The notes under the pieces: generated by a model
Seen by the model: only the letters and a program-made list of their open reading frames with translations
Told to the model about the DNA's origin: nothing
The model's database searches: none
Assembly (NCBI RefSeq): GCF_014202505.1
Contig: NZ_JACHGW010000001.1
Span: forward strand, 806,001-870,000
Direction: 5' to 3'
Length of the DNA: 64,000 nucleotides
Source: Armatimonas rosea
GTDB lineage: Bacteria > Armatimonadota > Armatimonadia > Armatimonadales > Armatimonadaceae
Shown here: piece by piece, positions 23,413 to 42,114 of the stretch
Layout: each line of letters opens with the position of its first letter
Numbering within the stretch: the first letter of the stretch is position 1
Program-made: the position numbers and the translations under genes

Positions 23413-23961
23413 TTAGTTTCGCCGACCGATAAACAGGGCGATCCCATTGGGCGACGCGCCATTGACGCTGCCGCTGACATAGTGATACTGGGCCTCGACG
23501 AAAAGCCCACCCGTGAGCCGCAGACCAGCCCCTATGTACCCCCCGAAGCGTGCTTTGAAACCAGAGCCCGCCGCGTCCACGAAGTAGGCACCGAACCCCT
23601 CCGAGGTGAAGAAGCCCGTCATGCCTGATGTCCCGGAGCTACTAGCGCTGCTGGTTTTTGTTACCAGTAGCGGGGCAACCCGGAACGATTTTCCCGCAGT
23701 GCTCCCCGTAAAGTAGCCTACGGTGAGGGTGCGGTCTGTCTCTGAGCGCGAGCTGCTCAGGTCAACCATCCCCCCTGGCACCTGTGAACCAGAGAGTGCT
23801 CGGGTGTCACTACCACTGGGGCGCAGAACCCCGAGCTTGATGCGTAGGGGAATTGTCTCCGCCACCGAGTTAGCGGTTGGGTTGAGCTGTGCCCGGACAG
23901 GTGCGCTCGCTCCTATCAGTAGCACGGTAGCCAGGACCGCCATTCGTACGAGGTTTTGCAT
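23413..23961 (-). CDS. Small exported beta-rich protein, paralogue of the 22823 gene
   Basis: 182-residue protein with a signal peptide ('MAVLATVLLIGASAPVRA') and a Gly/Ser-rich mature region ending in barrel-like strands ('FKARFGGYIGAGLRLTGGLFVEAQYHYVSG'). It shares the 'IKLGVLRPSG' opening and overall layout with the neighbouring 181-residue protein. TATAAT at 23969-23974 overlaps an ATG at 23970 but leaves exactly 7 nt to ATG 23961, so 23961 is taken as a leaderless start. Function unknown. Confidence 0.6.
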   Translation of the reverse strand: MQNLVRMAVLATVLLIGASAPVRAQLNPTANSVAETIPLRIKLGVLRPSGSDTRALSGSQVPGGMVDLSSSRSETDRTLTVGYFTGSTAGKSFRVAPLLVTKTSSASSSGTSGMTGFFTSEGFGAYFVDAAGSGFKARFGGYIGAGLRLTGGLFVEAQYHYVSGSVNGASPNGIALFIGRRN

Positions 23962-23968
23962 TGGGCTC

Positions 23969-23974
23969 ATTATA
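23969..23974 (-). promoter_or_regulatory. -10 box (TATAAT) of the 23961 gene
   Basis: Perfect TATAAT on the minus strand, 7 nt before ATG 23961, overlapping the upstream ATG 23970 that it therefore excludes. Confidence 0.55.
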
Positions 23975-24041
23975 AGGGTCTCACCCCCACGCGTCAAGCT
24001 TAGTTGCACAAAGGGGGGTGAGCATGCTACAATCGGCGGCG

Positions 24042-24350
24042 ATGGCAAGGCTGAAGCGACGCTATACAACGGTAAGTGGAACCGACGATTGGATCGTCTC
24101 GGTTTCCTACGATGAGGGGGCTCTGGCCCGCTCACACTGGTTTGAGGCACAGGTCAGTGCTGTCAACGAGGCGACAGGGGCGGCTTTCAAGCTACCCAAG
24201 GAGCTCGCCACCTACCGGGTTGGAGAGACAGAGCATCCCTTCCGTGACTATGTCCGGATGGACTGGGCGGGAGATACCGAGGCCGCGATCGCGCACCTGG
24301 TCAATACTCTCTACCGCCGTATCTACGCCTATATCGAGCGCGGCCACTAG
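24042..24350 (+). CDS. Hypothetical protein, 102 aa
   Basis: Small soluble protein of unknown family. It has no signal peptide; 'WIVSVSYDEGALARSHWFEAQVSAVNEATG' and 'VNTLYRRIYAYIERGH' suggest a mixed alpha/beta fold with a C-terminal helix. TACAAT (24028-24033) ends 8 nt before ATG 24042, so a near-leaderless transcript is likely. It converges with the corA-like gene with only 1 bp between stops. Confidence 0.55.
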   Translation: MARLKRRYTTVSGTDDWIVSVSYDEGALARSHWFEAQVSAVNEATGAAFKLPKELATYRVGETEHPFRDYVRMDWAGDTEAAIAHLVNTLYRRIYAYIERGH

Positions 24351-25890: not shown

Positions 25891-26106
25891 GTGTCTCTCT
25901 GCAGTGTCTGCACAACTGAAACAATCTCTGGCTATCCAGGGGTCCAACTAGGTACCGGGTGTGCAGGCCACAAGCGACATTGCGGGAGCGGGAGTCTGGG
26001 TAAGCTCACGCTCTTTACTGGCGGGACGCGGCAATGGTCATGCTGTCGTCTGTGCTTGCCCGGATGCTGTCTGTCGTGGTCCGATACGGGCTGCGGAACG
26101 GGCTAA
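25891..26106 (+). other. Possible leaderless leader reading frame upstream of the giant propeller protein gene
   Basis: GTG 25891 lies exactly 6 nt after TATAAT, as in the leaderless genes elsewhere, and opens a 71-codon frame ending at TAA 26106. The product would be Cys-rich ('CCRLCLPGCC') and resembles nothing known. GGAGG (26111-26115) then stands before TTG 26127, the proposed start of the large gene. The layout parallels the 23-codon frame before the 32577 gene. It may be a regulatory leader or chance; there is no codon-use evidence. Confidence 0.3.
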
Positions 26107-26126
26107 TCGAGGAGGTTGACCCCACT

Positions 26127-29100
26127 TTGAAGTTCGTGCCTACATCACGGCGATATGCCGCACTTGCTGTTTTTATGACCGCGCTGGTCGGGATAACAGC
26201 TGTGGCGAACGCGCAGCGCAGGGAACGGCAAACGCCGAGCCTGGGTAAATACACGGTTCCGTTACGCGCGTTTTCGGGCGTTGGCGATAACCGTTTTCTC
26301 TCGCCGAGCGTGACTGCTCGCGAGTTGAATGCGACGGGCGCTCAAACCAACGGCGGGACTAAGAATCCCACACGTGTACAGATCGGTGGTCCCAACGGAT
26401 CGAATGTCCAGGAAAAAGTGGTGGATGCGACTTTCTCGGAGACAACCGATGAGCGCATGCCTTACTGGACCGACGATGAACTGACGATCTACTTTGCTAA
26501 AAACTCGGGGACCGATGCCTCGAGCCACTACCAGCTCCATCGAATCGCTTCGAGCGTGGTCAATAACCCACAACAAAACGGAGCGGGAGTCAGTGTCGCC
26601 CTCACTAAAGAGTCGCTGGCAGATCACTGGTGGCCCACTCCGGATAAGTCGGGTGGCCGCCTGGCATTTGTCAAGTCTGTGGACAACCGTGTTCTCACAG
26701 ATCCCCTCAAGACATGGCAGCTGTACGTCGCGGTGACGCCCTCGCCAGGAAACACTATTGACATTGGTCCGGGGGGGAACAGTAACCTCCTCAACTTGAC
26801 GGGCGATCCCCAGACTTTCCGCGGCAAGAAGTTCGTCACTGTTGGACGGGCTTGCTGGATTGGGACAACCGATCTCTTGTTCTCGGGGCTACTGCAGGGT
26901 GATACGAACTACCACCTCTACACGGTGAACATCGTCTCCCGCCGCTTTACGCAGGTAACGGGTGGGGCTGCCGATGAGCGAAACCCAAGTATCTCGCCTG
27001 ATGGCCGGTACGTTGCCTTCGACTCTACCGCTCAGCCTACCGTCGCCGGTAATATTTATGTTGGTGGTGGAGTTCCTGCCACGGATGTAAACGTCGGTGG
27101 CGAGAACATCGCGGTTGCGACCGGGGTCAATGGTAGCGGTAAGCGCAATATCTTCGTGATGAGCGTTGCCAACGGGACCGTGACTCAGTTCACCAACCGG
27201 TATGCGGGTGCGCCGGACTCCGACGATGTTCAGCCCTCCTTCTCTGCGTCCCGAAGTAACCTCTACACTAACACGACGGGCGCAGCGTACTACATTGCTT
27301 TTGCCTCGACCCGTCAGCCCAATATTCCTGGGGCCCCGACTGCATACACCGCAGGTGGTAACACCCACGATATCTATGCGGTGCAGGCGACGGCGACGGC
27401 AACCACAACAGGCAACCTGCTAGTTGAGTCGGGTCCCAACACAGGGGCGCAAGCTGCCAAGCAGATCGACACGGCTGATCCCGGCTACATCTTTGATGAT
27501 CAGTACCCCACATGGTCTCCGTTCATCAATGCCACTCGGGTCGCGTTTCAGTCCAACCGTGTTGGAAGCCTTCAGTCGGGTAACTTCGGTGAAGGGTTCC
27601 GGACACCGGCCTCCCCGACCCCGTCAAACTACAGCGACATCTGCCTTGCAACCGTTCTGGATGTGAGTGCACCTACGCTGATTCGCTTCGACACCAGCAC
27701 GAGCTCGGGCGAGATCGTTCACATCAACCCCGTTCGGCCTGGCGATACTCGGCCGCAGCCCTTCGATGCGGACGTTTCATCGCGCAGTCGTGCAAGTGAC
27801 AGCCCGCTCTATCCCGGACAAGAAGCCTTCTTCACGGTTCGTATGGATGACCGCGAGTCGGGTGTTCAGTCCGTCTGGCTTCAGTTCAAGAACCCGAACT
27901 CAAAGTACCAGTCTCTTGCCCAAGGTGGCCTTGGGGTTGAGCACAAAGAGTACACGGGTACCCACTACGTTCTGTGGGAGGGCAGCCCGCCTCAGGTACT
28001 ACCCTGGATGTCTGCGGATGGCTCCAACCGTGTCGGCGTCGAGTACGAGGCACAAGTGGTTGGCCTCGATGGAGTGACCTACTTCAATCACCGCAACTCG
28101 GGTGGGCCTATCTACACTCCGGCAACAAACGACAGGTTTGCCTTTACGGGTGCTGCTAATCCTCCTCTAGATGGTAACGGTGGTCGTCCGAACGCTTGGT
28201 TACGTCTCCAGCCGCTTGTCGACATTAATGGTGACCCCATAAAGCCCGCCGACGGTCGTGGTGGTGTGCTTTACGGAGCGAAGTGGCGCATGCCTGCGGA
28301 GGCTTCGGACTGGATCATAGATGTCATTGCGTATGACAATGCTACTAACCCCTACGGTGGTGGCTCACGCAACTGGATCATCTACGACAATGTCTGGGGA
28401 TTCTCCACGGCTGCTATTCCCAACTCACCCGATGTTGATACGCTCTTTGTCTCTGACAATACTCTGGGGCAGAAGTTCTTCATTGCCCGTCCGGGTGAGA
28501 TCGCAGGAAACCCCGACAACGCGCAACCCGTCTCGTTCGGGGCAGAGTCCTACTACACGGACCCTGTCATGACCCGCTACCCGCAAGAGGTCAATCCTGT
28601 TGCACCTCCTGCGCCTGGCTCAACGACTCTTCGCTCCTGGTCTCAGGCTGGGCCGTTGCAGCTGACAGGGCGCTTCGGTGGACGTTATCTCAATGGGGTT
28701 GCGATCAACCCTGGTGTGATCCATCCACTTGGAGTGGGTTCCTACACGGATAGCCAGATCGACTTCTCGCCGGTCATCGAGACCAATGGTGAGACGTACG
28801 CTCTGCCGAACACGGGGCGCTACACCATCTGGCGTACGCTCTGCCGTGGGCCCGTTCCACAGGAGCTCATGGATGCTTATCTGCCCTACGCCGCGCCTTC
28901 GCCGGCAGACGTCGTGGCGGGTGAGAAGAGTGAGCGGACGGTTCGCGTTAAGAAGCGTCTCATCGTCTGGGCATCTCCCTTTATTGGTAACGTCTTTATG
29001 GGAGCAGGTAGCCTCGCTGACCTGAAGACCCAAGAGCGCCTTACCAACTACGTTAATAATGGTGGAGCTCTGTTCGTCTCCGGTATGGACATCGGTTTTG

Positions 29101-32100
29101 CTCTCGCAGGTAATGGCCAGAGCAACGCTTTCTACAGTGGAACACTGAAGGCTCAGTATGTCTCGGATAGTGGTGGGAGCGGGGCGGAGTCAATCGTTGC
29201 GGTTGGGACTACAACGCTCAACAATGACGCTTGGCCAGCAGACCAGCACCTCTACGGTACCTTCGACGGAAACAACTGGGTCTACAGCGCACCACGCTCT
29301 GCACCGCTCAGTGCCCGTTTCAATACAGGTACTGGCCCGGGAGATGGTGGTCGGACAAGTGACTCTACCACTGCCTACATTGACTCGATCAGCCCCCTCA
29401 CAGGAGCGACGCTTGAGTACAACTTCAACAACGGTGCTGGTGCCCTTATCTCCAGTACAACCGCAAACGGTGGTCGTGTCTACTATGCTTCCTTTGGTTT
29501 CGAGAGCCTCGGAAACGACTGGTATCCACAGACAGTAGGAAGCAATACGGTTCTCTTCAACCGTGCTCGCCGTGCTGAGATCATGACGAACTTCCTTCTG
29601 TCGAACCGTACGGGCACGATCTCGGGACGCATTATCGACGACAACGGCTCGCCGGTTGCTGACGCTCTGGTTCGTGCCACTCAGGGAAGTAATGTTGCGG
29701 TTGGAACTGCTCTTACGGATGCAAGTGGTAACTTTATCATCCAAGGGCTGCCGATTGGTCGCTACAACCTCTCTGGGTACCGACAAGGGTTCTACACCCA
29801 GCATGGAACGGGTTATCTAGTCCAAGCTGCAAACGATACGAAGGTATCGCTCCAGCTGAAGCGCGCTAACCCTGGCCAGCTCTCCAATATTCGAAAGCCC
29901 TCTGCTCCTCTCACTGAGGGAGGTGTCTTCGCACTGGACGGTAAGACGGGTATTGGTGGTGTTGAAGTGCAGGCTCGCCGCGTAAATGCGGACGGGACCA
30001 TGAATATCGCGAGTGCCATCTCTTCCGATGGAACAGACGGTCGTCGGCCAGGGGCATACCTGATCCGTGACCTTCTGATCTGGGATGATGGCTACGAGAT
30101 CCTGGTCAATAGCCCCACGAAACCTGACTTGGATTCCGCGGGCCGCCCACAGTACAACACGGATGGCACCCTCAAGACGGTTGTCAACCCTGCGTACCGT
30201 GCAGAACTCACAGATCTTTTGGTCGGTAAGCAGCCCCAGTCGGGTGTGGTGCTTGGATCCGGTACCCTGATTCAGAACCGACCCATTACTGGACAACCGG
30301 AGCGGTGGCGCTTGATCGTCGTTGAGGACCAAACCTCGCAGATGGACTTCCTTCTTGGTGGTCAATCTCAGAAGGTGACAGGAACTGTCCTCGACTCGAC
30401 CACCAATAGTCCTCTGGCAAATGCCTTTGTGACTGCTGTCGATGAAACGACAGGGGCGACGATTGCATCGGCCAAGACGGATGCTGCGGGGAACTACACC
30501 TTGCTGACCGTCGCGGGTTCGTTGGACAAGCTGCCTGCATCTACCTACACGATCACTGCGTCAGCGCTTGGATACAACACCGTCTCCTTTACGAAGGTGG
30601 TGGTGGGTGGAACGGGTGACCTCGTTCTCCCTGTATTCCGCTTGACTCCGTTGCCTGACGGTTCCGTCTCCGGAACGGTTCGTAAGGTAACAGGCGATGC
30701 GTTAGAAGCAGGTGTGACGATTCGGTTCTACATCGTGCAGAATGGGATCGTGAGCTCGACGCCGGCCAAGACAGTGGTCACCACACCGACTCTGACAAGT
30801 GATGCGACGGGGTACACCTATAACTTTAAGACCACTCTCTCACCAGGGCTCTACGAAGTTATTGGCGACAAGGTCGGTTTGACAACCGATCCGACACCTC
30901 TGCCGCGCCTTACCGTAACGTCGGCGACGGAGCGTCAGTCGTATAACTTCCGCATGCAACCTGCAAAGGTCTACAGTGATGGGGTTCAGCTGATCTCCAC
31001 ACCCGGCCTCTACAGCTACAGCGGTCCGTCTGCGATCACAACACGCGGTATCTTCGGGATCTCCGCCACTGGCGACAACGACGGTGACGGGACAGCCAAT
31101 ACTGCAAAGGATCAAGCTGTCTACAATCTCTTCAATGTCGCGGACTGGACGGGGACGGAGTACAACGTCAACCCAGACCTACAGATCCAGGTTGGTAAGG
31201 GGTACTTCGTGAGGTTCAACTCGCCTGTATCCGTGACCCAAGTTGGGACTGCTCTTCCTGGTACAACCTTTACCATTACGCTCGCACCCGGTTGGAACCT
31301 GATCGGACACCCCTTCGTGAATCCGACCAGCCCCAACACACCTGCTCCCGATCTCGACCTGTTTGCTCAGGGACAGATTCAGGAAGAAGGTGCGGCAGTG
31401 CTTAGCATGACGGAGGCTGTACGCCAAGGCAAGGTTCGCGGAGTCCTATTTGGCTACTCTGGGTCTAACAACGGATCCCAGTACTACCAGGCAAATGTCC
31501 TCAAGCCGTGGTTTGGATACTGGTTCCGCAACCTGACGAATCAGCCCATTAAGCTAATCCTTACCTACCCGTCGTCGAGAGCGGTGAGCACTGCTAAGAC
31601 GCCTGTAACTCGTGCTCAGCGTGATGCGGTTACCACACGCTCGATCGTGAGCCGCAGTGTGACGGACTGGAAGATGCAGCTAGGCGTGAAGCTAGGTACC
31701 TATATGGACACTGACAACGCCATTGGAGTATCTCCTAGCGCCAAGGATAGTTACGATAATCAGGATACGGAAAAGCCCTCACGGGTACGGGATGTTCCTG
31801 GTGTCTATCTCTCTATTGATGGGACCAATGAAACCGGTCGTGCGGCTGGCTTTGCAGACCTAATCCAGGCTGCAACACCAGGTACTAAGACATGGAACTT
31901 CACTGTTGAGTCAACAGTGACGGGCAAGGCAACTCTCTTTGCGCCAAATGCTGGTCAACTGCCGAAGGACGTCATCCCTGTCCTGATCGATAAAGAGACC
32001 AACAAGCGGTATGCGATGCGAGCTGCGGCTGCCTTTAGCTACCAAGCGATTGCCAACCAGCCTCACCGCTTCCAGATTGAGGTTGCTCCTGCGAGGACTC

Positions 32101-32408
32101 GCCTATTGGCAATCAACAACTTGCGGGTTGCGGCAAACAGCCGTGGTCAGCTTGGAACAAGCTATCGCCTGAGCTTCTCGTCTACACAAGACGCAGATGT
32201 AGAGTTTGAAGTCCAGGCCTTTAGCGGTCGCACGATGCGCCGCATCCAGACCCGAGCATCGGGTGTGGGTGAGACAAGCATCGTTTGGGACGGGCGTGAT
32301 GCCCAAGGGGCTAATCTCCCTGCTGGGGCTTACCGCCTAGTCATCACAGCGAAGGATATAACGGGGGCGACTGTTCGGCGCGAAGTGCCGTTTGGAAGCG
32401 TCCGCTAG
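26127..32408 (+). CDS. Giant exported protein: TolB-type propeller, carboxypeptidase-regulatory-like domains, FlgD-type Ig C-terminus
   Basis: About 2093 residues. Signal peptide 'TSRRYAALAVFMTALVGITAVANA' (about 5-29). PD40/TolB-like propeller blades lie at about 100-540 ('ADERNPSISPDGRYVAFDS', 'YPTWSPFINATRVAFQSNR'). An Ig-like region follows, then a Rossmann-like segment ('RLIVWASPFIGNVFMG', about 945) and three carboxypeptidase-regulatory-like beta-sandwiches (about 1160, 1415, 1510; 'GTISGRIIDDNGSPVADALV'). The shared C-terminus is 'GWNLIGHPF' (about 1721), 'WKMQLGVKLG' (about 1847) and an FlgD-type Ig domain (about 1990-2090, 'VWDGRDAQGANLPAGAYRL'). A longer frame from ATG 26034 exists, but TTG 26127 has GGAGG 11 nt upstream and puts the signal peptide at the N-terminus. 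Codon use favours T-ending codons (GGT, CGT, GTT), unlike flanking genes. It heads the surface-protein block. Confidence 0.8.
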   Translation: MKFVPTSRRYAALAVFMTALVGITAVANAQRRERQTPSLGKYTVPLRAFSGVGDNRFLSPSVTARELNATGAQTNGGTKNPTRVQIGGPNGSNVQEKVVDATFSETTDERMPYWTDDELTIYFAKNSGTDASSHYQLHRIASSVVNNPQQNGAGVSVALTKESLADHWWPTPDKSGGRLAFVKSVDNRVLTDPLKTWQLYVAVTPSPGNTIDIGPGGNSNLLNLTGDPQTFRGKKFVTVGRACWIGTTDLLFSGLLQGDTNYHLYTVNIVSRRFTQVTGGAADERNPSISPDGRYVAFDSTAQPTVAGNIYVGGGVPATDVNVGGENIAVATGVNGSGKRNIFVMSVANGTVTQFTNRYAGAPDSDDVQPSFSASRSNLYTNTTGAAYYIAFASTRQPNIPGAPTAYTAGGNTHDIYAVQATATATTTGNLLVESGPNTGAQAAKQIDTADPGYIFDDQYPTWSPFINATRVAFQSNRVGSLQSGNFGEGFRTPASPTPSNYSDICLATVLDVSAPTLIRFDTSTSSGEIVHINPVRPGDTRPQPFDADVSSRSRASDSPLYPGQEAFFTVRMDDRESGVQSVWLQFKNPNSKYQSLAQGGLGVEHKEYTGTHYVLWEGSPPQVLPWMSADGSNRVGVEYEAQVVGLDGVTYFNHRNSGGPIYTPATNDRFAFTGAANPPLDGNGGRPNAWLRLQPLVDINGDPIKPADGRGGVLYGAKWRMPAEASDWIIDVIAYDNATNPYGGGSRNWIIYDNVWGFSTAAIPNSPDVDTLFVSDNTLGQKFFIARPGEIAGNPDNAQPVSFGAESYYTDPVMTRYPQEVNPVAPPAPGSTTLRSWSQAGPLQLTGRFGGRYLNGVAINPGVIHPLGVGSYTDSQIDFSPVIETNGETYALPNTGRYTIWRTLCRGPVPQELMDAYLPYAAPSPADVVAGEKSERTVRVKKRLIVWASPFIGNVFMGAGSLADLKTQERLTNYVNNGGALFVSGMDIGFALAGNGQSNAFYSGTLKAQYVSDSGGSGAESIVAVGTTTLNNDAWPADQHLYGTFDGNNWVYSAPRSAPLSARFNTGTGPGDGGRTSDSTTAYIDSISPLTGATLEYNFNNGAGALISSTTANGGRVYYASFGFESLGNDWYPQTVGSNTVLFNRARRAEIMTNFLLSNRTGTISGRIIDDNGSPVADALVRATQGSNVAVGTALTDASGNFIIQGLPIGRYNLSGYRQGFYTQHGTGYLVQAANDTKVSLQLKRANPGQLSNIRKPSAPLTEGGVFALDGKTGIGGVEVQARRVNADGTMNIASAISSDGTDGRRPGAYLIRDLLIWDDGYEILVNSPTKPDLDSAGRPQYNTDGTLKTVVNPAYRAELTDLLVGKQPQSGVVLGSGTLIQNRPITGQPERWRLIVVEDQTSQMDFLLGGQSQKVTGTVLDSTTNSPLANAFVTAVDETTGATIASAKTDAAGNYTLLTVAGSLDKLPASTYTITASALGYNTVSFTKVVVGGTGDLVLPVFRLTPLPDGSVSGTVRKVTGDALEAGVTIRFYIVQNGIVSSTPAKTVVTTPTLTSDATGYTYNFKTTLSPGLYEVIGDKVGLTTDPTPLPRLTVTSATERQSYNFRMQPAKVYSDGVQLISTPGLYSYSGPSAITTRGIFGISATGDNDGDGTANTAKDQAVYNLFNVADWTGTEYNVNPDLQIQVGKGYFVRFNSPVSVTQVGTALPGTTFTITLAPGWNLIGHPFVNPTSPNTPAPDLDLFAQGQIQEEGAAVLSMTEAVRQGKVRGVLFGYSGSNNGSQYYQANVLKPWFGYWFRNLTNQPIKLILTYPSSRAVSTAKTPVTRAQRDAVTTRSIVSRSVTDWKMQLGVKLGTYMDTDNAIGVSPSAKDSYDNQDTEKPSRVRDVPGVYLSIDGTNETGRAAGFADLIQAATPGTKTWNFTVESTVTGKATLFAPNAGQLPKDVIPVLIDKETNKRYAMRAAAAFSYQAIANQPHRFQIEVAPARTRLLAINNLRVAANSRGQLGTSYRLSFSSTQDADVEFEVQAFSGRTMRRIQTRASGVGETSIVWDGRDAQGANLPAGAYRLVITAKDITGATVRREVPFGSVR

Positions 32409-32414
32409 ATCAAG

Positions 32415-32466
32415 AGAGATTGCCTGGATTCATCTCTTGACAAGAGAAGGAATCCAGGCAATCTCT
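32415..32466 (+). other. Strong stem-loop without U-tract
   Basis: Perfect 17-bp stem (32415-32431 with 32450-32466) and an 18-nt loop that can itself pair (ctctt/aagag), 7 nt after the stop of the giant gene. No T-run follows, so processing, mRNA protection or Rho-type ending is likelier than intrinsic termination. Confidence 0.6.
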
Positions 32467-32495
32467 GTCGAAGAATAGTAACAATACGTGCGGGG

Positions 32496-32501
32496 TACAA
32501 T
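32496..32501 (+). promoter_or_regulatory. -10 box (TACAAT) before the CsgG-like gene
   Basis: TACAAT ends 7 nt before ATG 32509, the first codon of a short leader frame, and not before the main gene. Confidence 0.5.
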
Positions 32502-32508
32502 GCGAACC

Positions 32509-32580
32509 ATGATCGAGCGACCAGTTTGCTCGTTGAAAGAGAGGCTGGCTACGACAATGGACGGAGGAAAAACGCGTTGA
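32509..32580 (+). CDS. Putative 23-residue leader peptide, coupled to the CsgG-like gene
   Basis: ATG 32509 starts 7 nt after a TACAAT box and encodes MIERPVCSLKERLATTMDGG plus KTR. Its stop TGA (32578-32580) overlaps the TTG start of the next gene (32577) as TTGA. The main gene's Shine-Dalgarno GGAGG (32563-32567) lies inside this frame. This predicts that a leaderless ribosome reads the leader and hands over to the main gene. No regulatory peptide motif such as a codon run is seen. Confidence 0.45.
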   Translation: MIERPVCSLKERLATTMDGGKTR

Positions 32581-34658
32581 GAAACTTGGTGCTTGGGAGC
32601 TTAGGGCGGCGCATCAGCTGGTCGCTGGTAACAGCGCTTCTGTTGCCTCTGCTCATTCTGGCGATGCCAAAGGCAGCGAAAGCGCAGACCACTCGAATCC
32701 CTTCAGTGGCAGCGATTGACTTTGGAGTTTTGTCAGGTGTTGGGGCAACTCAGATTGATGGCCGGACTGCGACGGATGCCGTAGCTCTGGAGATGACGAA
32801 TACCGGTCGCTACGAAATTACGCCGCGCACGGTTCTTAATCAAGAGATTCAGAAGCAAGGGTTGAGTGCGCCGTTTAATAATATCGGTATTCAGCGGCTA
32901 GGGCGGTCCCTGGGTGTGGACTATGTCCTTACGGGCGACATCGTTAACACAACCAGTGTTGACAACCGTGTTAAAGTGACCCTCAGTGTTCGCTTGACGG
33001 ATGTTGTCTCGGGTGAGTTTATCAATGGAGCTGTGGAGACAGGTATCTCTCCTGCGCCTCCTGCAGGCATTGAGCCAGATCGCCAGACCCAGATTGGGCA
33101 AGCGATTTCGAACGCTGCATTCCTTGCAGTTCGGACGATGAGCTCGTTCAGTTTGCCTGAAGCGACTGTTCTAAACACGACCAATGACAGTATCTTCCTA
33201 AACCGTGGAAGCCGTGATGGTATCTCCTCTGGTCTGGAGATGATTGTAACCCGTGGTCGCGAGCAGGTTGGTAAGATTCGCGTTACTTCGGTCCAGTCAA
33301 CGACCTCCGTTGCTAGTGTTACGGAAGCGAGTAAGGGGATTCGTCCTGAGGATCATGCACGCGCAATCGTGAAAATTCCAGGGGTGACGGTATCTTCGGA
33401 TGGGCAGATTAAGTCCAACGTGATTCCTGATATCGGAACGTATCGCCCACGGCAGAAGAACCAGAAGAGTGCGCTCAGTACTGTGATTGGTGTTGTGGGA
33501 GCCGTTCTTCTCGCAGGATTCTTGTTTAGTACGCGCAGTAGCAACCAAGGCGCTGGTGTTGTTGGAGTCGTTGCTCGTGCTTATGCGGATGGCTCCGTCT
33601 CTGCATCGCTTGATCCTTCGGCTGCTCGTGTCGAGCTTCGTTGGCAGGCTGCTCAAGACATTCCTGGTGGGAACATTATTGAGTATCATATCTGGCGCGA
33701 CGGTATCCTAATCGCTGCTGTTAGCCGGACACAAACTCGTTTTGTTGACGATCCGATTCGCCAGGGCACCCAAAACTATAACGTCGTTGACTACGGTAGC
33801 GATGTGACCTTTACGCTAACTCAGACGACCGCTGGTGGCACGACTGCTGGTGGTACGACCGCTGGCACGACCGCTGGTGGCACAACTGCTGGCGGCACGA
33901 CCGCTGGTGGTACGACTGCTGGTGGTACGACCGCTGGTGGAAACACTAGTAATCAGATTGGCTTTGGTACATCACTGAAGACTTTGAGCTCGACAGTTGT
34001 CCCAATGTCTGTTGGTGTAACGCACCGCTACGAGATTAGTGTGCTTTACCGTGCTGTCCAGGCTCCTGATCTTTCTCAGCAGTCAACTACCTCCGGTGGT
34101 GGTATCGGTGGTGGTATCGGCGGCGGTATCGGTGGTGGTATCGGCGGCGGCATCGGTGGTGGTATCGGTGGTGGTGGTGGTACGACCGCCGGTGGTACGA
34201 CTGCTGGTGGGAACAACAACAACTCGACCACCCTCTTCCGTGAGTCTGCACTGGAAGCACGCAGTGGGCCCGTGACTCCCTTGTCTCGTCCTGCGGTGAC
34301 CGGACCGGTTTCTGACCAGAACATGCAGCGCGTGACGGTTACGTATCAGACGGTCCCTGGTGCGAACGAGTACGTGGCGGAGTTCTCTTCAACACCTGAC
34401 TTCAAGACAAAGGTGCAAAAGGGACCGTTCTTTGCGAACTTTACGTTGGGAGCTGTGACTCGGACGGAGTCCTACGACCTGAGCACAGACTTTGCTTCGC
34501 TCAAGGCCGGAAGTCGTGTCTACTATCGTGTTGGTGCACGAAGCTCACTAGATACGCCTGGACCCATGGGACGGGATACAGCGAATGGGGACAACTACAT
34601 CTACTCACAGGAACTGACGTCCTTTGCTAAGATTAGTGTTCCGCCTGCGGCACCGTAG
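32577..34658 (+). CDS. CsgG/TolB-N-like exported protein with membrane segment, fibronectin-like part and Thr/Gly repeats
   Basis: About 693 residues. Signal peptide about 1-36 ('LLLPLLILAMPKAAKA'). A CsgG/LpoB-like domain (about 38-200) has 'VAAIDFGVLSGVGATQIDGRTATDAVA', 'RYEITPRTVLNQEI' and 'LGRSLGVDYVLTGDIV'. A small beta domain follows (about 210-275, 'FLNRGSRDGISSGLEMIVTR', as in FlgT C-terminal domains), then a transmembrane segment 'STVIGVVGAVLLAGFLF' (about 302-318). A fibronectin-III-like region is interrupted by TTAGG repeats (from about 417) and GGGI repeats (from about 507), then a second one ('VPGANEYVAEFSSTPDF'). TTG 32577 with GGAGG 9 nt before it is preferred to TTG 32526. CsgG is the curli export pore; no pore segment can be identified here, so export is inference. 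Confidence 0.7.
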   Translation: MRNLVLGSLGRRISWSLVTALLLPLLILAMPKAAKAQTTRIPSVAAIDFGVLSGVGATQIDGRTATDAVALEMTNTGRYEITPRTVLNQEIQKQGLSAPFNNIGIQRLGRSLGVDYVLTGDIVNTTSVDNRVKVTLSVRLTDVVSGEFINGAVETGISPAPPAGIEPDRQTQIGQAISNAAFLAVRTMSSFSLPEATVLNTTNDSIFLNRGSRDGISSGLEMIVTRGREQVGKIRVTSVQSTTSVASVTEASKGIRPEDHARAIVKIPGVTVSSDGQIKSNVIPDIGTYRPRQKNQKSALSTVIGVVGAVLLAGFLFSTRSSNQGAGVVGVVARAYADGSVSASLDPSAARVELRWQAAQDIPGGNIIEYHIWRDGILIAAVSRTQTRFVDDPIRQGTQNYNVVDYGSDVTFTLTQTTAGGTTAGGTTAGTTAGGTTAGGTTAGGTTAGGTTAGGNTSNQIGFGTSLKTLSSTVVPMSVGVTHRYEISVLYRAVQAPDLSQQSTTSGGGIGGGIGGGIGGGIGGGIGGGIGGGGGTTAGGTTAGGNNNNSTTLFRESALEARSGPVTPLSRPAVTGPVSDQNMQRVTVTYQTVPGANEYVAEFSSTPDFKTKVQKGPFFANFTLGAVTRTESYDLSTDFASLKAGSRVYYRVGARSSLDTPGPMGRDTANGDNYIYSQELTSFAKISVPPAAP
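33825..33940 (+). repeat. 15-bp coding tandem repeat (TTAGG)n
   Basis: About eight copies of acgacYgctggYggY encode Thr-Thr-Ala-Gly-Gly; one copy is shortened by a residue. Copies differ at third positions only, which points to selection for the peptide. The unit length is a multiple of three, so copy-number change would alter length but not frame. Confidence 0.85.
34095..34212 (+). repeat. 12-bp coding tandem repeat (GGGI)n followed by TTAGG units
   Basis: About seven copies of ggYggYggtatc encode Gly-Gly-Gly-Ile, followed by a Gly run and two more TTAGG units. Same gene and same synonymous variation as the 33825 repeat. Confidence 0.85.
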
Positions 34659-34674
34659 TCGCAAAAGAGGGAAA

Positions 34675-34697
34675 GGGGTGCGGTTCTGCCGCACCCC
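34675..34697 (+). other. Stem-loop without U-tract after the CsgG-like gene
   Basis: Perfect 9-bp stem GGGGTGCGG/CCGCACCCC with loop ttctg, 16 nt after the stop; followed by tcattacag, so it is not a classical terminator. Confidence 0.6.
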
Positions 34698-34779
34698 TCA
34701 TTACAGACCGATCGAGATTTGGTAGTGGGGTTTCGGCTAGCGGTTTAGCCCGACTTGTGCGTGACTCCTGAGAACAACG

Positions 34780-37700
34780 ATGAGGCAAATTAAACTTCGA
34801 GCCATTTTCAGTTTGGCAGCTGCGACGTTGCTAGGTGTTGCGGTTCCCGCAGCCCTTGCACAGACGCCGAAGGCTAAACCCGGGGAGATTGTAGTTAAGG
34901 TTCCTGATAACATGAACCCTGCTACGCTCGCCGCACAAGTCAATTGTGATGTAATTGGGCCTGTAGCATACTGTGACCATTACTGGGTCTTTGGGGTTCG
35001 GGGGCGAAATCTCCAGCTCTCAGAAGAAGCGCCTAAAGCCGATTTGCTCACTGCTGTTACTGCGCTTCGACAAGTGCCTGGTGTGAGTGCTGATCCCAAC
35101 TGGATGCAGTACATGCAGGATACTAAGCGTGATCTAAAGGGGGGGAAGTCTGCTCTGAGCCGGGCACAACAGCCTCCTGGTGCTCGTCTTCTTCCAAATG
35201 ACCCACTGTACTCAAGCCAGAAGTGGCATATGGAGATGATCCGAATGCCAGAGGCTTGGAACATCCAGTTCGGTGATGGCCAACCAACTCTAGTCGCGGT
35301 TATTGACTCTGGTATAGACGCAAACCATCCCGAATTTAAAGATTCTCTAGGTGTTTCAAAGGTTGTTGCGCAACAAGATTTCTCAGGGGCAACTAATCCT
35401 GGTTTGGATGTTGATGGCCACGGTACTCATGTGGCCGGTACGATAGCTGCAACGACAAGTAACGGGACTGGCGTGACTGGAATCGCCGGATGGAATCGCC
35501 AAGGCGTCAATATCAAGTTGATCAACGCTAAAGTTTTTCCTGGGGGCGGACTTGGCGCTTCATCTGCGACTGTTGCCAGTGCCATCAATTACTCTGTTAC
35601 GCAAGGCGCTCGTGTTATCAACATGAGTTTAGGCTATGCCGGAGCATCTGCTGCTCAGATCGAAATTGATGCAGTTAATAATGCTTTGAAAGCAGGGATC
35701 GTTGTTGTAGTTGCAGCTGGTAACGATTCTAACGATAACGATAACCCTCAAACAAAAGCTTGGCCGGCTGATATTGACGGGGTTATAAAAGTCACGGCGA
35801 TTGGTCCGACGAAGGTATTGTCATCATATTCCAACTATGGCGGTAATCCTCAGAAAATCGGAGCTCCGGGCGGAGATGATTTTAGCGTTGCAGGGCCGGG
35901 TGCTATCTGGTCGACTGCTCCGGTGGCCGGATCCTTTGACTTCTCCAATCCAAGCTACGCTCCCTCTAACGGGACATCGATGGCATGTCCACATGTTGCA
36001 GGAGCATCCGCACTTTTGATTGCGGCTGGAGTTCCTGCTGATACTGTTTACCAAGCGCTTTCTGATGGTGCTTCGCAAGCAGCGGATGGGGTAAACCCAA
36101 AGCGGTATGGTCCTGGTGTCTTAGACGTTTACTCTGCGCTCTATCCCTATACCCCAGGTATTACCCTGGAGGGCGGGGGAGACCGTGGTATCTCGTATTT
36201 TGGTTCGACTGGAATCTCCCTGACGATAAACCGTGCTGATCGAATCTACCAGAGTGGTCCTCCTGCAGGTACAACGGGCTTTTGGTCGCTGGAGAGCGAT
36301 CTGAGTGTCGAGGTACAGACTGTAGGGCGAACCCCTAGTATCGTCAGATCGTTTGTTGGTGGTCGCGGTGTTCTTGGTCAGGCTGGAAAGATTGAAATCC
36401 CACCCTTGCCTGCCGTGGGAACGCGTCCTTCTCAGTCAACTGGGATCCGAGTACCTGCTCGAAACACAGATGGAACCTACTCCCCGATTAATCTCTCACC
36501 TGGCCAGTATCGTATCGTTGCACGATTGAACCTACGAAATACGGCGGGGATTGTACAGACACTGGAGCAAGTGCAGTTCATCACCATTGTCGAGAAGCAA
36601 CTTAGTGCTGGTCGCACGATGTTTGCGATGCCCTTCAAGGCAGGAATTGCAACGCGCCCTGCAGGCTCTAACTTGACTCCAGAGGCTGCGGTGCTTGGAC
36701 AAGCAACTGTGTTTGGTCTGTCCCGTTACAACCCGATTCGAATGCCTAGTGATGATGACTATGCGCGCTTTCGCTCTGCTGATCCCTTCAACCTGAAGAA
36801 CGCAGCCCGGTTCGCCTCTGCCGATCAGCTAGACTCCACGGTCGTTGTGTACGATACGACAGCTCCTTCTGTCTCCATTGCTCCTATTGGGCTGGGATAT
36901 TGGTTGGACCTAGATCGTGCAGGGACGGTGAATACAACACTGTTGCCTTACCCGGGTCAGATTACTGGTGTAAGCCCCGTCGCAGAGAACTCTGTTGGCA
37001 TCAAGGCCTATGCCTCGGGTGGTGGCTGGAACATGATTGGAGCCCCGTTCACTTACCCGGTGGACTGGAGTGTGGTCACTGTTCGGGCTGATGGTGTAAG
37101 CTACTCCATTGCGGAAGCTGTCAAAGCAGGGATTGTTTCTCCTGCACTGATTGGCTTTGCAAATGGCGATTATGTCTACTCCGTTGCACCTGGCGGTCAG
37201 CTTGAGCCGTTCAATGCTTACTGGGTGCGTGTCTATCGAGACTGTCAGTTTAACGTTCCTCCCGTGCCCACAGCAAGCATTGCGACACGTAGTACGCTTA
37301 GCAATGCAGGGCAGCAAGGTGGATGGCAGGCACGCTTAATTGCAAGTGTTGGCAATGGTGTTGATGGCCAAAACTATATTGGTCAGCGCCCCGGAGCTGC
37401 CGATGGTGAGGATTTGGCAGATCTTCCGAAGCCACCTGCGGGTGCATCGGATGTCTATGTGACTCTCCTCAGCAAGGGAGCTAACGGTAAAAGCCGAGCA
37501 CTTGCCTATGACATGCGTCCTCTAAATGGCAACGCAGTTACTCAAGAAGAGTGGGTCGCAACGGTCCAGTCTGTGCGCCCCAATGCAAAGGTGGTACTAT
37601 CCTGGGACGGTATCCGTACCGCACCACGTAACGCTCGCCTAGTGCTAACGGATGTGCAAACAGGCGCTGTGATCCCCATGGCAAGCCGATCGAGCTATGT

Positions 37701-38073
37701 CTACCAGTCTGGTGATGCAGGCACGGTACATCGTTTTGTGATCAAGATGCTGCCGCAGACTAGCGGTGTTCTCGCGATCCGGAACCTAAAAACCGGCTCG
37801 ACGACCCGTGCTGCTGCAGGGCTGACGGTTCGCTTTAATACTAACCTTGAGGCAGATACTCAGGTAAGTATTGTGACAACGTCTGGCCGAGAGATTCGCA
37901 CACTAGCGAGCTCTGGTCGCGTACAGCCTGGTACTGAGGTCTCCCTCTACTGGGATGGTCGCGGAAAAGATGGTGCCGTTGTTCCTGCAGGTCCCTATGT
38001 TGTTAAGGTTAGCGCCAAGACAGCCGATGGTCAGCAGCAGAATATGCAGCGAATGGTTCAGATCCTAAAGTAA
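34780..38073 (+). CDS. Subtilisin-like (S8) exported protease with FlgD-type Ig C-terminus
   Basis: 1097-residue exported serine protease. Signal peptide about 1-28 ('AAATLLGVAVPAALA'), an I9-like pro-region (about 35-115), then the S8 domain (about 140-460) with complete triad D176 ('LVAVIDSGIDANHPEF'), H214 ('DGHGTHVAGT') and S400 ('NGTSMACPHVAG'), plus oxyanion N315 ('VAAGNDS'). The C-terminal half holds an unassigned beta region (about 480-720), 'GWNMIGAPF' (about 749), 'GWQARLIASVGNG' (about 848) and an FlgD-type Ig domain (about 1000-1090, 'YWDGRGKDGAVVPAGPYVV'). The last three parts recur in the 26127 and 38145 proteins. It may mature surface proteins of the same block (inference). The start region lacks a clear ribosome site. 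Confidence 0.9.
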   Translation: MRQIKLRAIFSLAAATLLGVAVPAALAQTPKAKPGEIVVKVPDNMNPATLAAQVNCDVIGPVAYCDHYWVFGVRGRNLQLSEEAPKADLLTAVTALRQVPGVSADPNWMQYMQDTKRDLKGGKSALSRAQQPPGARLLPNDPLYSSQKWHMEMIRMPEAWNIQFGDGQPTLVAVIDSGIDANHPEFKDSLGVSKVVAQQDFSGATNPGLDVDGHGTHVAGTIAATTSNGTGVTGIAGWNRQGVNIKLINAKVFPGGGLGASSATVASAINYSVTQGARVINMSLGYAGASAAQIEIDAVNNALKAGIVVVVAAGNDSNDNDNPQTKAWPADIDGVIKVTAIGPTKVLSSYSNYGGNPQKIGAPGGDDFSVAGPGAIWSTAPVAGSFDFSNPSYAPSNGTSMACPHVAGASALLIAAGVPADTVYQALSDGASQAADGVNPKRYGPGVLDVYSALYPYTPGITLEGGGDRGISYFGSTGISLTINRADRIYQSGPPAGTTGFWSLESDLSVEVQTVGRTPSIVRSFVGGRGVLGQAGKIEIPPLPAVGTRPSQSTGIRVPARNTDGTYSPINLSPGQYRIVARLNLRNTAGIVQTLEQVQFITIVEKQLSAGRTMFAMPFKAGIATRPAGSNLTPEAAVLGQATVFGLSRYNPIRMPSDDDYARFRSADPFNLKNAARFASADQLDSTVVVYDTTAPSVSIAPIGLGYWLDLDRAGTVNTTLLPYPGQITGVSPVAENSVGIKAYASGGGWNMIGAPFTYPVDWSVVTVRADGVSYSIAEAVKAGIVSPALIGFANGDYVYSVAPGGQLEPFNAYWVRVYRDCQFNVPPVPTASIATRSTLSNAGQQGGWQARLIASVGNGVDGQNYIGQRPGAADGEDLADLPKPPAGASDVYVTLLSKGANGKSRALAYDMRPLNGNAVTQEEWVATVQSVRPNAKVVLSWDGIRTAPRNARLVLTDVQTGAVIPMASRSSYVYQSGDAGTVHRFVIKMLPQTSGVLAIRNLKTGSTTRAAAGLTVRFNTNLEADTQVSIVTTSGREIRTLASSGRVQPGTEVSLYWDGRGKDGAVVPAGPYVVKVSAKTADGQQQNMQRMVQILK

Positions 38074-38082
38074 ATCCGATCA

Positions 38083-38110
38083 AGGGTGCGGAGATAGCTC
38101 TCCGCACCCT
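38083..38110 (+). other. Stem-loop without U-tract after the protease gene
   Basis: Perfect 12-bp stem AGGGTGCGGAGA/TCTCCGCACCCT with a TAGC tetraloop, 9 nt after the stop; no T-run follows. Confidence 0.65.
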
Positions 38111-38144
38111 AGAGACGCTGAAGAAGCAAAAGAGAGGTTGTTCG

Positions 38145-41100
38145 ATGGCGATTTTCGCTCTTCGGAAACAAGAATTAAAGAAGCACGTACCAGGAGCCTT
38201 TCGGTTACCTGCTGTCGCTCTGGGCCTGATGATGGCTCTGTCTGGCACGACCCGGTCTGCGCTGGCAGATACTCAAGGAGGGGTTATCTCTGTTCCTCTG
38301 CCAGGTCTCACTCTGGGCTCAAGCTTTCCTTGGGGACCATCTAGTACGACACCTTGGTATGCCTATATCTACAATGAGTATATTTTGGTGACGGTTGGGT
38401 GGACAGGGGCATGGGTTCCTCCGATTCCTCCCCATGTCACAGGTGATGTCGCTGGTCGAATCTCTTTAGGGACTATTGCAGGTAACCTTCGTTTGACTCA
38501 GGACAACGATCAGGCGTTGCTTGGTGGTGTAACGAAGGATCCCGCTACTTCCGCGCTAGGCGTGTTCGATGACGCACAGTTCCCGTTTGGATGGGGTGCA
38601 GGTCAGACTAGTACGGTTGGTGGGACAGAGGGAACGTATCAAGACTACCCCGCCTATCTCCGTGCACTAGTCGATGGTGCGACTCAGGTCAATGTCGGCT
38701 TTGATACAAATCAGGTTCGATTGTCCCCAACCTTCCGACTGACCGATGGTCTTCCTGGAAGTGCTGCAGATCGCCCACTTCTAATTGGTAGCTACAACTT
38801 GGGTGCAAACGGCAGTCTCTACCTTGAGCAGCGGATTCGCCTCTTGCGAAGCACAGCGCGGTTTGAATGGACCATTGTGAACACCGATACTCAGGCTCAC
38901 ACGGTCGGACTTCGCTGGACGACAAACCAGCGCGCTGCAAATAACTTCTACTTTGTCAACTCCGATCGCGGGATAAGCCCCCGTCCGGTGGTGCTGGGAA
39001 ATGATCCTTCTACTCCGGGTGCCGTCGTTCCGCCAATCCCTGATGCGCTTGATATCTATGCGCGCCGGGCAGATACCTCGACTGATCCCGGGTTTGACAA
39101 TCGCCAGACCTTCCGTGGCTTAAGTGATGTTACCCTGCCACTGTCGGTCTATATTGCCGATGCTGTGGAGTTGGCACCTGGGACAGCAACGCCAGCTGGT
39201 CAGTACCTGCCACGTGCACAAGGCATACGCGTTCCCACCTTTGAGACTGGTCTGGCAACAGCGGTCTACTATGGGAATACTCCTCAGGGTTACGTGATCC
39301 CTGCAGGTGGACGCCGTGTGGTTGTAGCGTATGTGGGCGAGGGTGGAACTAACGACCTGATTGCGGATGATCTCGTTGTTGGAACCGAGTCCCCGACTGC
39401 ACTTTCGTACTACCCTGGTGCCGCTACCCTTGCGGGTGTTGCAGGCAATACGTCTGCTACGCTCGTTGATGTCGCGTCCAAGTTTATTGGTGCTCCCACA
39501 ACAGGCACCGATGCAAATGGCAACGTGATTGTGACGGGGGTAGATAACAAGTTCCGTATCTACGCGAGCGTTTACAGCCAGAAGCAGCGCCTGCCTGACG
39601 CAGACGTGCCGCTCAGTGGTGTCTCTGCAAGCCTAACCTTGCCCCCTGGACTTCGCTTTGCGATTGATCCTACTACAGGACTTCGTGATGTAACCACGAA
39701 GCTGGTTACTCCGATTGGAAGTGCCGCTGGTAAAGCTGGTGAGCTGATCGGTGATCAAGACGGAGTTGCTTCCTGGTTGGTTGAGCCTACAGGTGAGGTC
39801 TTTGGACCCGTTACCTATCAGGTCGCTGTGGGTGTGGCTCGGCCAAACCCGCTCTCCCGATCGATTGGCCGCACGATTACGATCCCTGCAACTCCTCTGG
39901 TTGAGCTGCAGTCGGGGACGTTCCAGATGGTGGGCTTCCCGTTCCAGTTTGATGCGAGCCTTTCCAATAATGGCGATCCTGATACCGTCATTAACTCCTT
40001 GAGCCGCCCGATTGATGAGCCGGTTATCCTTTACCGCTGGATGCCTGATCCCCTCTCGGATACGGGAGCAGGGCGCTACATCAAGGAAACTAAGATCGAG
40101 CCTGGTGTTGCGTACTTCTATCGTCCGAGCCAGGGTAGCGCTGGAAAGCGCCTGCTCTACATCAAGGGAGCAGCACCTGAGTCCCTTCAGGCACCTACCG
40201 GAAACACGCTTCCTGTTCCGCTCCAGAGAATTCTGGACAAGGGCTGGAACATGATTGCGAACCCTTACGTCTACGATATCCCGCTAAACTATCTGCGTGT
40301 TGTTCCTCTTGAGGGCAATCCGTCGCTGAGCTCGATCTCGTTTGGTGAAGCTGTTCGTAATAACGTCATCAAGGGTGGAGTCTTCTACTTCGACCCGAGT
40401 CAAGGTGGGTACGCCTTCTTCGAGGATCTGACCGCTCCACTGAAGCCCTGGCAGGGATACTGGATCTACGTCAACACTCGGGTTAGCGTCCTGTTCGCTA
40501 CGCCGACACAGCGTGATGCGGTGGTTCTGCCGGATCCTGTTAGCTCTACTCCTGAGCCCGCTACCCGTGTGGTCAAGGATTCCTCTACCTCTAATTGGAC
40601 GCTGGACATCATTGCACGGCGCGCCGACGGGACGATGGATCGTGCGACTCGCATTGGAATGTCTCCCAATACTGCGGATAATCGCGGAAATATGCCTAAG
40701 CCTCCTGTCTTCGAGCAGCAGAAGTATGTTCGGATGGAGATTGCAAATGGCAATAGCCGCTACGCCCAGGTTCTTAAGAATCCTAGCAATAAGGCAACTT
40801 GGAACCTTGAGCTGACGAGCAGCGAAGACGGCCCTGTCAATGTGATGCTCTCTGGTTTGAATAGTGTTCCGAAGCGTATGCGGTTAACCATCACCGATCA
40901 GCAGACGGGACAGACGACAAACCTGCGAAACACCTCCGCACTGAAGGTCAACGTCCGGAAGGGAGCGGTCAGCCGCTTCGTCCTAACGGCAGTCGCTGAT
41001 GTGACCCGACCGCTGGCAATTACCCGCTTGGTTTCTACGGGTGGTGGGAGCCGTGCGGCTGGTAGTAGCTATGCCTACCTCCTTGGCATGACCCAGGACA

Positions 41101-41324
41101 ATGTTGCGATCGATGCTACGCTCACTACGGTCTCGGGCTCGCCGATCTCTGTGCTTGCCGCCGGAAGCCGCGCCTCTACGAATGGAGTGGCCAAGCTTTC
41201 CTGGAACGGCCGTAGCCAGAGTGGGGCACCTGTTCCTGCGGGTAGCTACATCCTCAAGGTCCGGGTAACAAACGACAGTGGTGACTCTGACACACGGACG
41301 TTGCCTGTGACGGTAACGCGCTAA
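38145..41324 (+). CDS. Large exported surface-type protein with FlgD-type Ig C-terminus
   Basis: 1059 residues, N-terminal function unknown. A long n-region precedes the signal peptide ('FRLPAVALGLMMALSGTTRSALA', about 19-41). Residues about 45-450 are beta-rich ('YLEQRIRLLRSTARFEWTIVNTDTQAHTVGLRW' region about 226-260), followed by Ig-like segments (about 480-580, 'LTLPPGLRFAIDPTTG'). The C-terminal module set is 'GWNMIANPY' (about 698), 'NWTLDIIARRADG' (about 817) and an FlgD-type Ig domain (about 955-1059, 'SWNGRSQSGAPVPAGSYIL'), as in the two other large proteins of this block. AGAGG stands 7 nt before ATG 38145. It is probably displayed on the cell surface. Confidence 0.7.
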   Translation: MAIFALRKQELKKHVPGAFRLPAVALGLMMALSGTTRSALADTQGGVISVPLPGLTLGSSFPWGPSSTTPWYAYIYNEYILVTVGWTGAWVPPIPPHVTGDVAGRISLGTIAGNLRLTQDNDQALLGGVTKDPATSALGVFDDAQFPFGWGAGQTSTVGGTEGTYQDYPAYLRALVDGATQVNVGFDTNQVRLSPTFRLTDGLPGSAADRPLLIGSYNLGANGSLYLEQRIRLLRSTARFEWTIVNTDTQAHTVGLRWTTNQRAANNFYFVNSDRGISPRPVVLGNDPSTPGAVVPPIPDALDIYARRADTSTDPGFDNRQTFRGLSDVTLPLSVYIADAVELAPGTATPAGQYLPRAQGIRVPTFETGLATAVYYGNTPQGYVIPAGGRRVVVAYVGEGGTNDLIADDLVVGTESPTALSYYPGAATLAGVAGNTSATLVDVASKFIGAPTTGTDANGNVIVTGVDNKFRIYASVYSQKQRLPDADVPLSGVSASLTLPPGLRFAIDPTTGLRDVTTKLVTPIGSAAGKAGELIGDQDGVASWLVEPTGEVFGPVTYQVAVGVARPNPLSRSIGRTITIPATPLVELQSGTFQMVGFPFQFDASLSNNGDPDTVINSLSRPIDEPVILYRWMPDPLSDTGAGRYIKETKIEPGVAYFYRPSQGSAGKRLLYIKGAAPESLQAPTGNTLPVPLQRILDKGWNMIANPYVYDIPLNYLRVVPLEGNPSLSSISFGEAVRNNVIKGGVFYFDPSQGGYAFFEDLTAPLKPWQGYWIYVNTRVSVLFATPTQRDAVVLPDPVSSTPEPATRVVKDSSTSNWTLDIIARRADGTMDRATRIGMSPNTADNRGNMPKPPVFEQQKYVRMEIANGNSRYAQVLKNPSNKATWNLELTSSEDGPVNVMLSGLNSVPKRMRLTITDQQTGQTTNLRNTSALKVNVRKGAVSRFVLTAVADVTRPLAITRLVSTGGGSRAAGSSYAYLLGMTQDNVAIDATLTTVSGSPISVLAAGSRASTNGVAKLSWNGRSQSGAPVPAGSYILKVRVTNDSGDSDTRTLPVTVTR

Positions 41325-41367: not shown

Positions 41368-42114
41368 ATGGAAGGACATTCGAGCAAACCTATGATGAGC
41401 CCGAAAACGACGCGTCGCGCACTTCTTACAGGGGGACTCCTGCTCATCGCAGGCATGGCGGTCTTGCCAGGTAAAGCCCAGGCACAGACTAACAGTGTGC
41501 TGCTCTTCCCTGCAGTCGTAGATGGTAATCGGAATGAGAGCACAAAGCTTGTCGAAGAGATTGTGACTGAGTCTGTGCGTACTCAGCTGGCAAAAGTTGG
41601 GATCACGGCGGTTGTCTATAACAAGCGTCTTCCCAGCGTGCAACGCGCTCTGAACGAAAGCGATAAGATTCTCACAGAGAAGGACATCGATGCAGGTCCA
41701 GGCGACGATACTCGTAAGGCACAGCGCTTTGCTGAGGTTGTAGGGGCCAGCGAGTATGTCACGATCTTTGTCGATGACTACTCCTTCGATGCCGCGACAC
41801 GTACGGCGAAGTTCAACCTCTCGCTCTCACGCTACAACACGGCCGCGGGAAAAGCCCTCGGCACCTTTGCCAATGGACAGCAGGGTATCGCACCCGCTGA
41901 TGTTGCCAAGGCTCGGCAAGAAGGGTCTGCGACCGCTCGTGCGGCAGATACGGGAGCTCAGCAGGGAGTGACTAATCTCTTCCCACAGCTGGCGAAGGTT
42001 GCGACCGTAGCTAAGGCAAAGCCAACCAAGACAACAAAACCCCGCTCTAACGAAAAGAAGGTCACGACGATCTTCGGTGTGCTTCTTGGTGTTTTGTACC
42101 TCTCAACACGCTAA
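41368..42114 (+). CDS. CsgG/LpoB-like small exported protein
   Basis: 248 residues. The N-terminus 'TTRRALLTGGLLLIAGMAVLPGKAQA' has a twin-arginine-like RR before the hydrophobic core and an AQA cleavage site (about residue 40). The mature domain ('SVLLFPAVVDGNRNESTKLVEEIVTESVRTQL', 'AQRFAEVVGASEYVTIFVDDYSFD', 'KFNLSLSRYNTAAGKALG') follows the CsgG/LpoB-like alpha/beta order, like the first domain of the 32577 protein but shorter. The C-terminus is Lys/Thr-rich and ends in a hydrophobic 'VTTIFGVLLGVLYLSTR' that may sit in a membrane. GGAAGGA lies 7 nt before ATG 41368. It is the last gene before a true terminator. Confidence 0.55.
   Translation: MEGHSSKPMMSPKTTRRALLTGGLLLIAGMAVLPGKAQAQTNSVLLFPAVVDGNRNESTKLVEEIVTESVRTQLAKVGITAVVYNKRLPSVQRALNESDKILTEKDIDAGPGDDTRKAQRFAEVVGASEYVTIFVDDYSFDAATRTAKFNLSLSRYNTAAGKALGTFANGQQGIAPADVAKARQEGSATARAADTGAQQGVTNLFPQLAKVATVAKAKPTKTTKPRSNEKKVTTIFGVLLGVLYLSTR

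Follow-up and report, generated by a model that had tools for sequence, protein, structure and literature searches.

The type IX secretion system (T9SS) has been described as exclusive or specific to the Bacteroidetes (PMC4793230, PMC5445135), and PMC7463736 likewise presents it as restricted to that group. In published T9SS C-terminal domains (CTDs), PxGxY and KxxxK motifs are conserved within the last 22 residues (PMC5445135), and a Lys near the C-terminal end is present almost without exception and matters for function (PMC10994853). The entry 8GL6, which proved useful for comparison here, is one of the substrate-translocon structures of the SprA study (PMC10994853). We found no report of a T9SS in Armatimonadota among open-licence papers. 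The domain types that make up the locus described below are already known; what is new is their combination and the phylum in which it occurs.

The locus lies in a window from Armatimonas rosea, by which we mean the whole stretch of 64,000 nucleotides that was analysed, and includes three giant proteins, all on the forward strand. Protein A (2124 aa; 26034..32408, +) combines a PD40 propeller-type repeat and CarboxypepD_reg repeats with a C-terminal tail; position 26127, previously taken as its start, marks a later start codon of this reading frame. Orthologues of its head were found on 47 tail proteins among the fetched loci. Protein B (1097 aa; 34780..38073, +) bears a subtilase domain (PF00082, 154 bits, residues 169-431) followed by its tail. 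Motif regexes had raised the idea that this head is a pseudoenzyme, which was ruled out by an alignment in which the Asp-His-Ser triad (D176/H214/S400) is intact in 39 of 40 orthologues. Protein C (1059 aa; 38145..41324, +) has an all-beta head, is present in 65 loci and persists where A and B are absent. Its AlphaFold model (mean pLDDT 77.7, pTM 0.75) returned only generic beta-sandwich matches in a fold search, with a TM-score by query of at most 0.16.

The sequence-only reading had proposed that these three proteins, with unrelated N-termini, end in the same three-part order, and both halves of that proposal stand. Judged by sequence comparison, the tails of A, B and C are homologous pairwise over about 365 residues (the last 350-380 or so of each protein), with BLASTP identities of 28% over 370 aa for A and B (E 1e-26), 25% over 385 aa for A and C (E 1e-25) and 27% over 378 aa for B and C (E 8e-25), while no significant BLASTP match links the heads to one another (best E 0.01). 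The tail occupies 31269..32405 (+) in A (residues 1746-2124; profile 345 bits), 37021..38070 (+) in B (residues 748-1097; 338 bits) and 40233..41321 (+) in C (residues 697-1059; 308 bits). All three parts are found in the alignment: a first module with GWN(L/M)I(G/A).P(F/Y) that closes with (K/E)P(W/F)..YW, a second of the form W...(L/I)...D...IG..P..(A/K)D followed by KP, and an FlgD-type Ig domain ending in W(D/N)GR...GA.(L/V)PAG.Y, which begins at about 32157 in A, 37816 in B and 41067 in C. The FlgD_ig model (PF13860, cut-off 27) recognises this last domain in A (38.8 bits) and B (30.2) and scores 21.4, below the cut-off, in C. In the AlphaFold model of C the tail resolves into compact beta units at residues 693-784, 818-965 and 974-1057; the linker at 789-813 is modelled with low confidence. 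Two findings would have spoken against the shared-tail idea, namely unrelated tails or an occurrence mainly in cytoplasmic proteins; instead the tails are homologous, and A, B, C and a fourth tail protein encoded elsewhere in the genome (protein 4) each start with a Sec signal peptide, as read by eye.

A, B and C are members of a conserved operon rather than a sample of unrelated cargo. Across the phylum the gene order is A, an LpoB-like protein D, subtilase B, C, E and an LptD-like protein F, of which A, B and C carry the tail; many Fimbriimonadales and Chthonomonas genomes retain just D, C and F. Protein D (710 aa; 32526..34658, +) matches LpoB (PF13036, 32.1 bits, cut-off 22.3), has MreC/FlgT-like and fn3-like parts as well, lacks the tail and keeps its place between A and B by synteny. 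Protein E (248 aa; 41368..42114, +) is a small secreted protein without the tail, matched no Pfam family and has orthologues at the same position in other loci. Protein F (681 aa; 42180..44225, +) comprises an N-terminal Big_1/invasin Ig region (PF02369/PF09134), an LptD-like jellyroll and an outer-membrane barrel; its profile matches LptD 7omm (E 7.5e-7), and its AlphaFold model matches LptD structures by Foldseek (E 1e-14). This fusion of an invasin/intimin-type Ig domain with an LptD-like barrel is unusual and conserved in the phylum. Upstream in the window, two adjacent genes on the minus strand (22823-23368 and 23413-24150) encode small secreted proteins which, on inspection by eye, resemble outer-membrane barrels of small size. 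No flagellar genes were recognised among the window neighbours.

A tail profile built from 44 tails (350 positions) was used to search the genome, and after 49 candidates had been scored exactly four copies were found. The further cargo that such a search was proposed to look for came down to a single extra copy, protein 4 (1036 aa), whose tail lies at G000:C1:946156-947235 (-). A CarboxypepD_reg lipoprotein with GCGGGGG after its signal (L006:7258-8139, minus) adjoins the protein 4 gene and is kept in many relatives. Because the tail sits on just four conserved proteins, the genome by itself is not decisive as to whether the tail is a sorting signal. Beyond it, the tail is present in 274 of the 291 Armatimonadota genomes searched, and the nearest tail loci belong to Armatimonadota MAGs. 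Among the fetched loci, 189 of the 207 tail proteins have an A, B, C or protein 4 head. Some relatives yield many more matches, 56 in genome G246, 48 in G275 (many of them to the Ig domain only) and 14 in G183, and the heads examined there include subtilase S8, M6 peptidase, NHL, WD40, beta-helix and LVIVD types. Such a spread over unrelated heads is what one would expect if the tail were a signal for C-terminal sorting or anchoring.

These counts bear on one alternative, in which the tail is an assembly module: the tails would bind each other or barrel F, so that A, B, C and protein 4 would form one envelope complex, and no export signal would be involved. The restriction of the tail in this genome to four conserved proteins, three of them encoded in an operon with an LptD-like barrel, is what such a module would predict, and tails that are only 25-28% identical within the window are about as divergent as paralogues with separate roles. 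We nevertheless regard this explanation as unlikely, given the dozens of tails that G246 and G183 carry on heads unrelated to one another, an exact C-terminal Arg ending that fits recognition of a chain end better than packing, and homology of the whole tail to an exported T9SS substrate.

That homology emerged from a comparison of the tail profile with the PDB. Positions 10-299 of the 350 align with the substrate chain of 8GL6 (deposited as RemA; Flavobacterium) at E 6.6e-7, a match that covers the GWN and middle modules and extends into the start of the CTD. The suggestion that a GWN segment and a similar Ig tail occur next to type IX sorting domains is supported by this alignment and by the tail homologues of FCB-type genomes outside Armatimonadota, whose Por_Secre_tail scores reach or approach the cut-off. 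Lys-rich CTD ends prevail among these homologues, which come from Neomarinimicrobiota, Zixibacteria, KSB1, Caldithrix-type and other genomes outside the phylum. Homology of the tail to a T9SS cargo C-terminus over all three parts is well supported by these alignments. Counting against a T9SS-type reading, the window tails miss the CTD models and the FlgD Ig scores best: no tail in this genome matched PF18962, TIGR04183 gave weak matches in 10 of the 44 tails with none over the cut-off, and the best-scoring relative in the PDB is the FlgD Ig (7eh9, E 3e-11), the PorU Ig following at E 1e-3.

The end of the tail is strikingly regular. Among the 205 Armatimonadota tails that have the last domain, 192 (94%) terminate in Arg and 4 in Lys (R/K in 196/205), 175 stop exactly at the end of the profile model, and 169 have P.G.Y or a close variant 29 residues from the stop. 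Over all tails, an R/K end is found in 205 of 217, against 20% of other ORFs. Such regularity matters for a second alternative, according to which the tail is a relic or borrowed domain set, an extracellular GWN sandwich and an FlgD-type Ig shared by descent, on proteins that leave by another route or stay bound in the periplasm or at the outer membrane. That the hook-cap Ig of FlgD is the best-scoring relative would agree with this, as would T9SS machinery that is nowhere over the cut-off in the Armatimonadota searched and the fact that some protein 4 copies have lost the Ig. A relic would hardly be expected, however, to keep its Ig end so strictly constrained in 205 tails, nor to coexist with a compact SprA homologue that is found phylum-wide and is often encoded next to a tail gene; we consider this explanation quite unlikely. 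The Ig loss concerns protein 4 of several Fimbriimonadaceae (L136, L137, L155, L161), in which the first two tail modules are kept.

The search for genome-encoded type IX components, which had been proposed as a follow-up, did not recover the known machine. Full-length SprA was over the cut-off in 0 of 201 Armatimonadota genomes, PorV in 0 of 61, with nothing in the A. rosea genome, and PorU in 0 of 19, the best match in A. rosea having E 1.5e-4. In the window proteins, the PorU model matches the Ig alone. Weak PorV-family matches were found in 25 of the 61 genomes (best 68.6 bits, cut-off 90). As controls we used nine FCB-type genomes, distantly related and drawn from several phyla, chosen solely for carrying tail homologues, and there the same models exceeded their cut-offs in 9/9 (PorV), 7/9 (SprA) and 6/9 (PorU) genomes. 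The GldM model, with 0 of 61 in Armatimonadota, was silent in every control genome too, so that its silence does not count as evidence of absence. At the sequence level, none of the standard T9SS parts full-length SprA, PorV and PorU can be recognised in the Armatimonadota genomes searched.

Two C25 peptidases, G246:C33:5034-7118 (L176; 299 bits) and G203:C172:21426-23561 (L177; 254 bits), score below the PorU cut-off of 420; they resemble the catalytic part of PorU and gave no match to its C-terminal part. A third alternative holds that a full T9SS is present and so diverged that PorV, PorU and the motor parts fall below detection. The weak PorV-family matches and the likeness of these peptidases to the PorU catalytic part could be read in this way, but the same models match strongly in the distant control genomes, and the A. 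rosea genome has no PorV match and at best a weak one to PorU. A complete, strongly diverged machine appears very improbable.

What Armatimonadota do encode is a compact homologue of SprA, about 850-1150 aa long where the T9SS protein has about 2000-2400. In A. rosea it is a real gene of 1040 aa (L007:5628-8750, minus, on contig C6) beside csaB and DUF5693; in most loci read, the gene lies downstream of DUF5693 and csaB, and this trio recurs across the phylum. The SprA model (TIGR04189) recognises only the region corresponding to SprA 590-690, with 35 bits in A. rosea. Direct comparison with true SprA gives E 1e-15 to 1e-18 over the whole sequence and aligns colinear segments, residues 48-183 with SprA 158-305 and 193-273 with 628-708. 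A PDB profile search with the compact protein returned no match, which leaves the SprA model and the direct comparison with SprA genes as the basis for linking it to SprA. A second family of about 1100-1165 aa with the SprA 590-690 domain (L166:5624-9118, L167:9242-12733, L171:4213-7530, L173:8262-11609) occurs in Armatimonadota and in FCB-type genomes, and in L166 lies beside an anti-sigma-like gene.

A profile of the compact protein finds a match in 261 of the 291 genomes; by hand count, the match is strong (E at most 1e-40) in 215. Of the 274 genomes that carry the tail, 214 have a strong match, against 1 of the 17 that lack it (Fisher p 2e-9, a value that ignores shared ancestry); the 60 remaining tail genomes, some of them incomplete, have a weak SprA-like match or none. 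The protein 4 gene adjoins that of compact SprA in G208, G203, G009, G134, G112 and G246, and the two are also neighbours in 6 of 20 additional genomes that had been selected for the SprA-like gene alone; the adjacency spans at least seven families. In A. rosea the two genes are unlinked (L007 and L006), and in several Fimbriimonadaceae the Ig-less protein 4 nevertheless adjoins compact SprA.

Taken together, we favour, with modest confidence, a reading in which the tail is a C-terminal sorting or anchoring module of the T9SS-cargo type, serving a divergent SprA-type route of export or anchoring at the outer membrane. The tail looks like such a signal because of the 8GL6 alignment, the roughly 50 tails on unrelated heads in some relatives and the terminal Arg. 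Of the earlier proposal that a shared tail on unrelated heads marks a sorting or anchoring signal, the part that finds support is the homology to T9SS cargo, the unrelated heads in relatives and the basic end at the stop codon; the part that finds none is a T9SS of known type encoded in this genome. In outline, tail proteins would cross the inner membrane by Sec export, after which the C-terminal Ig and the terminal Arg would be recognised at the outer membrane. Compact SprA may be the exporter, acting as recogniser or pore through which the tail protein would pass or to which it would attach, and the head would then be displayed on the cell surface. Lacking roughly the second half of SprA, the compact protein may be too small to form a protein-conducting pore. 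A, B and C could, with the LptD-like F and the LpoB-like D, constitute a conserved surface or envelope complex delivered by the tail route, and subtilase B might, more speculatively, process other tail proteins.

With no recognisable T9SS machine and only a half-length relative of SprA, the phylum may rely on another, or a simpler, form of this export route. More specifically, and tentatively, Armatimonadota would possess SprA-type export that relies on a half-length, compact SprA and on tails ending in Arg, and that dispenses with PorV, PorU and full SprA; it would represent either an ancestral or a strongly reduced T9SS outside the FCB group. If this were true, the T9SS signal and pore would be older than the other parts of the machine or would have survived them, and the phylum would provide a minimal system for asking which T9SS parts export needs. 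The tail also offers a route to predicting the surface proteome of the little-studied Armatimonadota.

Compared with known systems, protein F is like LptD in its OstA-like jellyroll and large barrel, and differs from it in the N-terminal invasin/intimin-type Ig domain and in its place within a tail-protein operon. The tail shares with the FlgD hook-cap protein an FlgD-type Ig as last domain (PF13860), but the tail proteins lack the FlgD N-terminus and reach 34 bits with the FlgD equivalog models against a cut-off of 230. Compact SprA resembles SprA/Sov (TIGR04189) in two colinear segments, including the DYxIDY-type domain at SprA 590-690, whereas it scores 35-47 bits where the cut-off is 200, lies beside csaB and DUF5693 and has no PorV partner that we found. 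Armatimonadota tails depart from T9SS cargo in ending with Arg, not Lys, in scoring as FlgD_ig rather than Por_Secre_tail, and in a distance of 29 residues from P.G.Y to the end, which in the FCB-type homologues is mostly 24-25. Yet like T9SS cargo with a type A CTD, their proteins combine an N-terminal Sec signal with a P.G.Y close to the C-terminus and a basic final residue, and, again like T9SS cargo, the tail is carried in some genomes by many unrelated heads.
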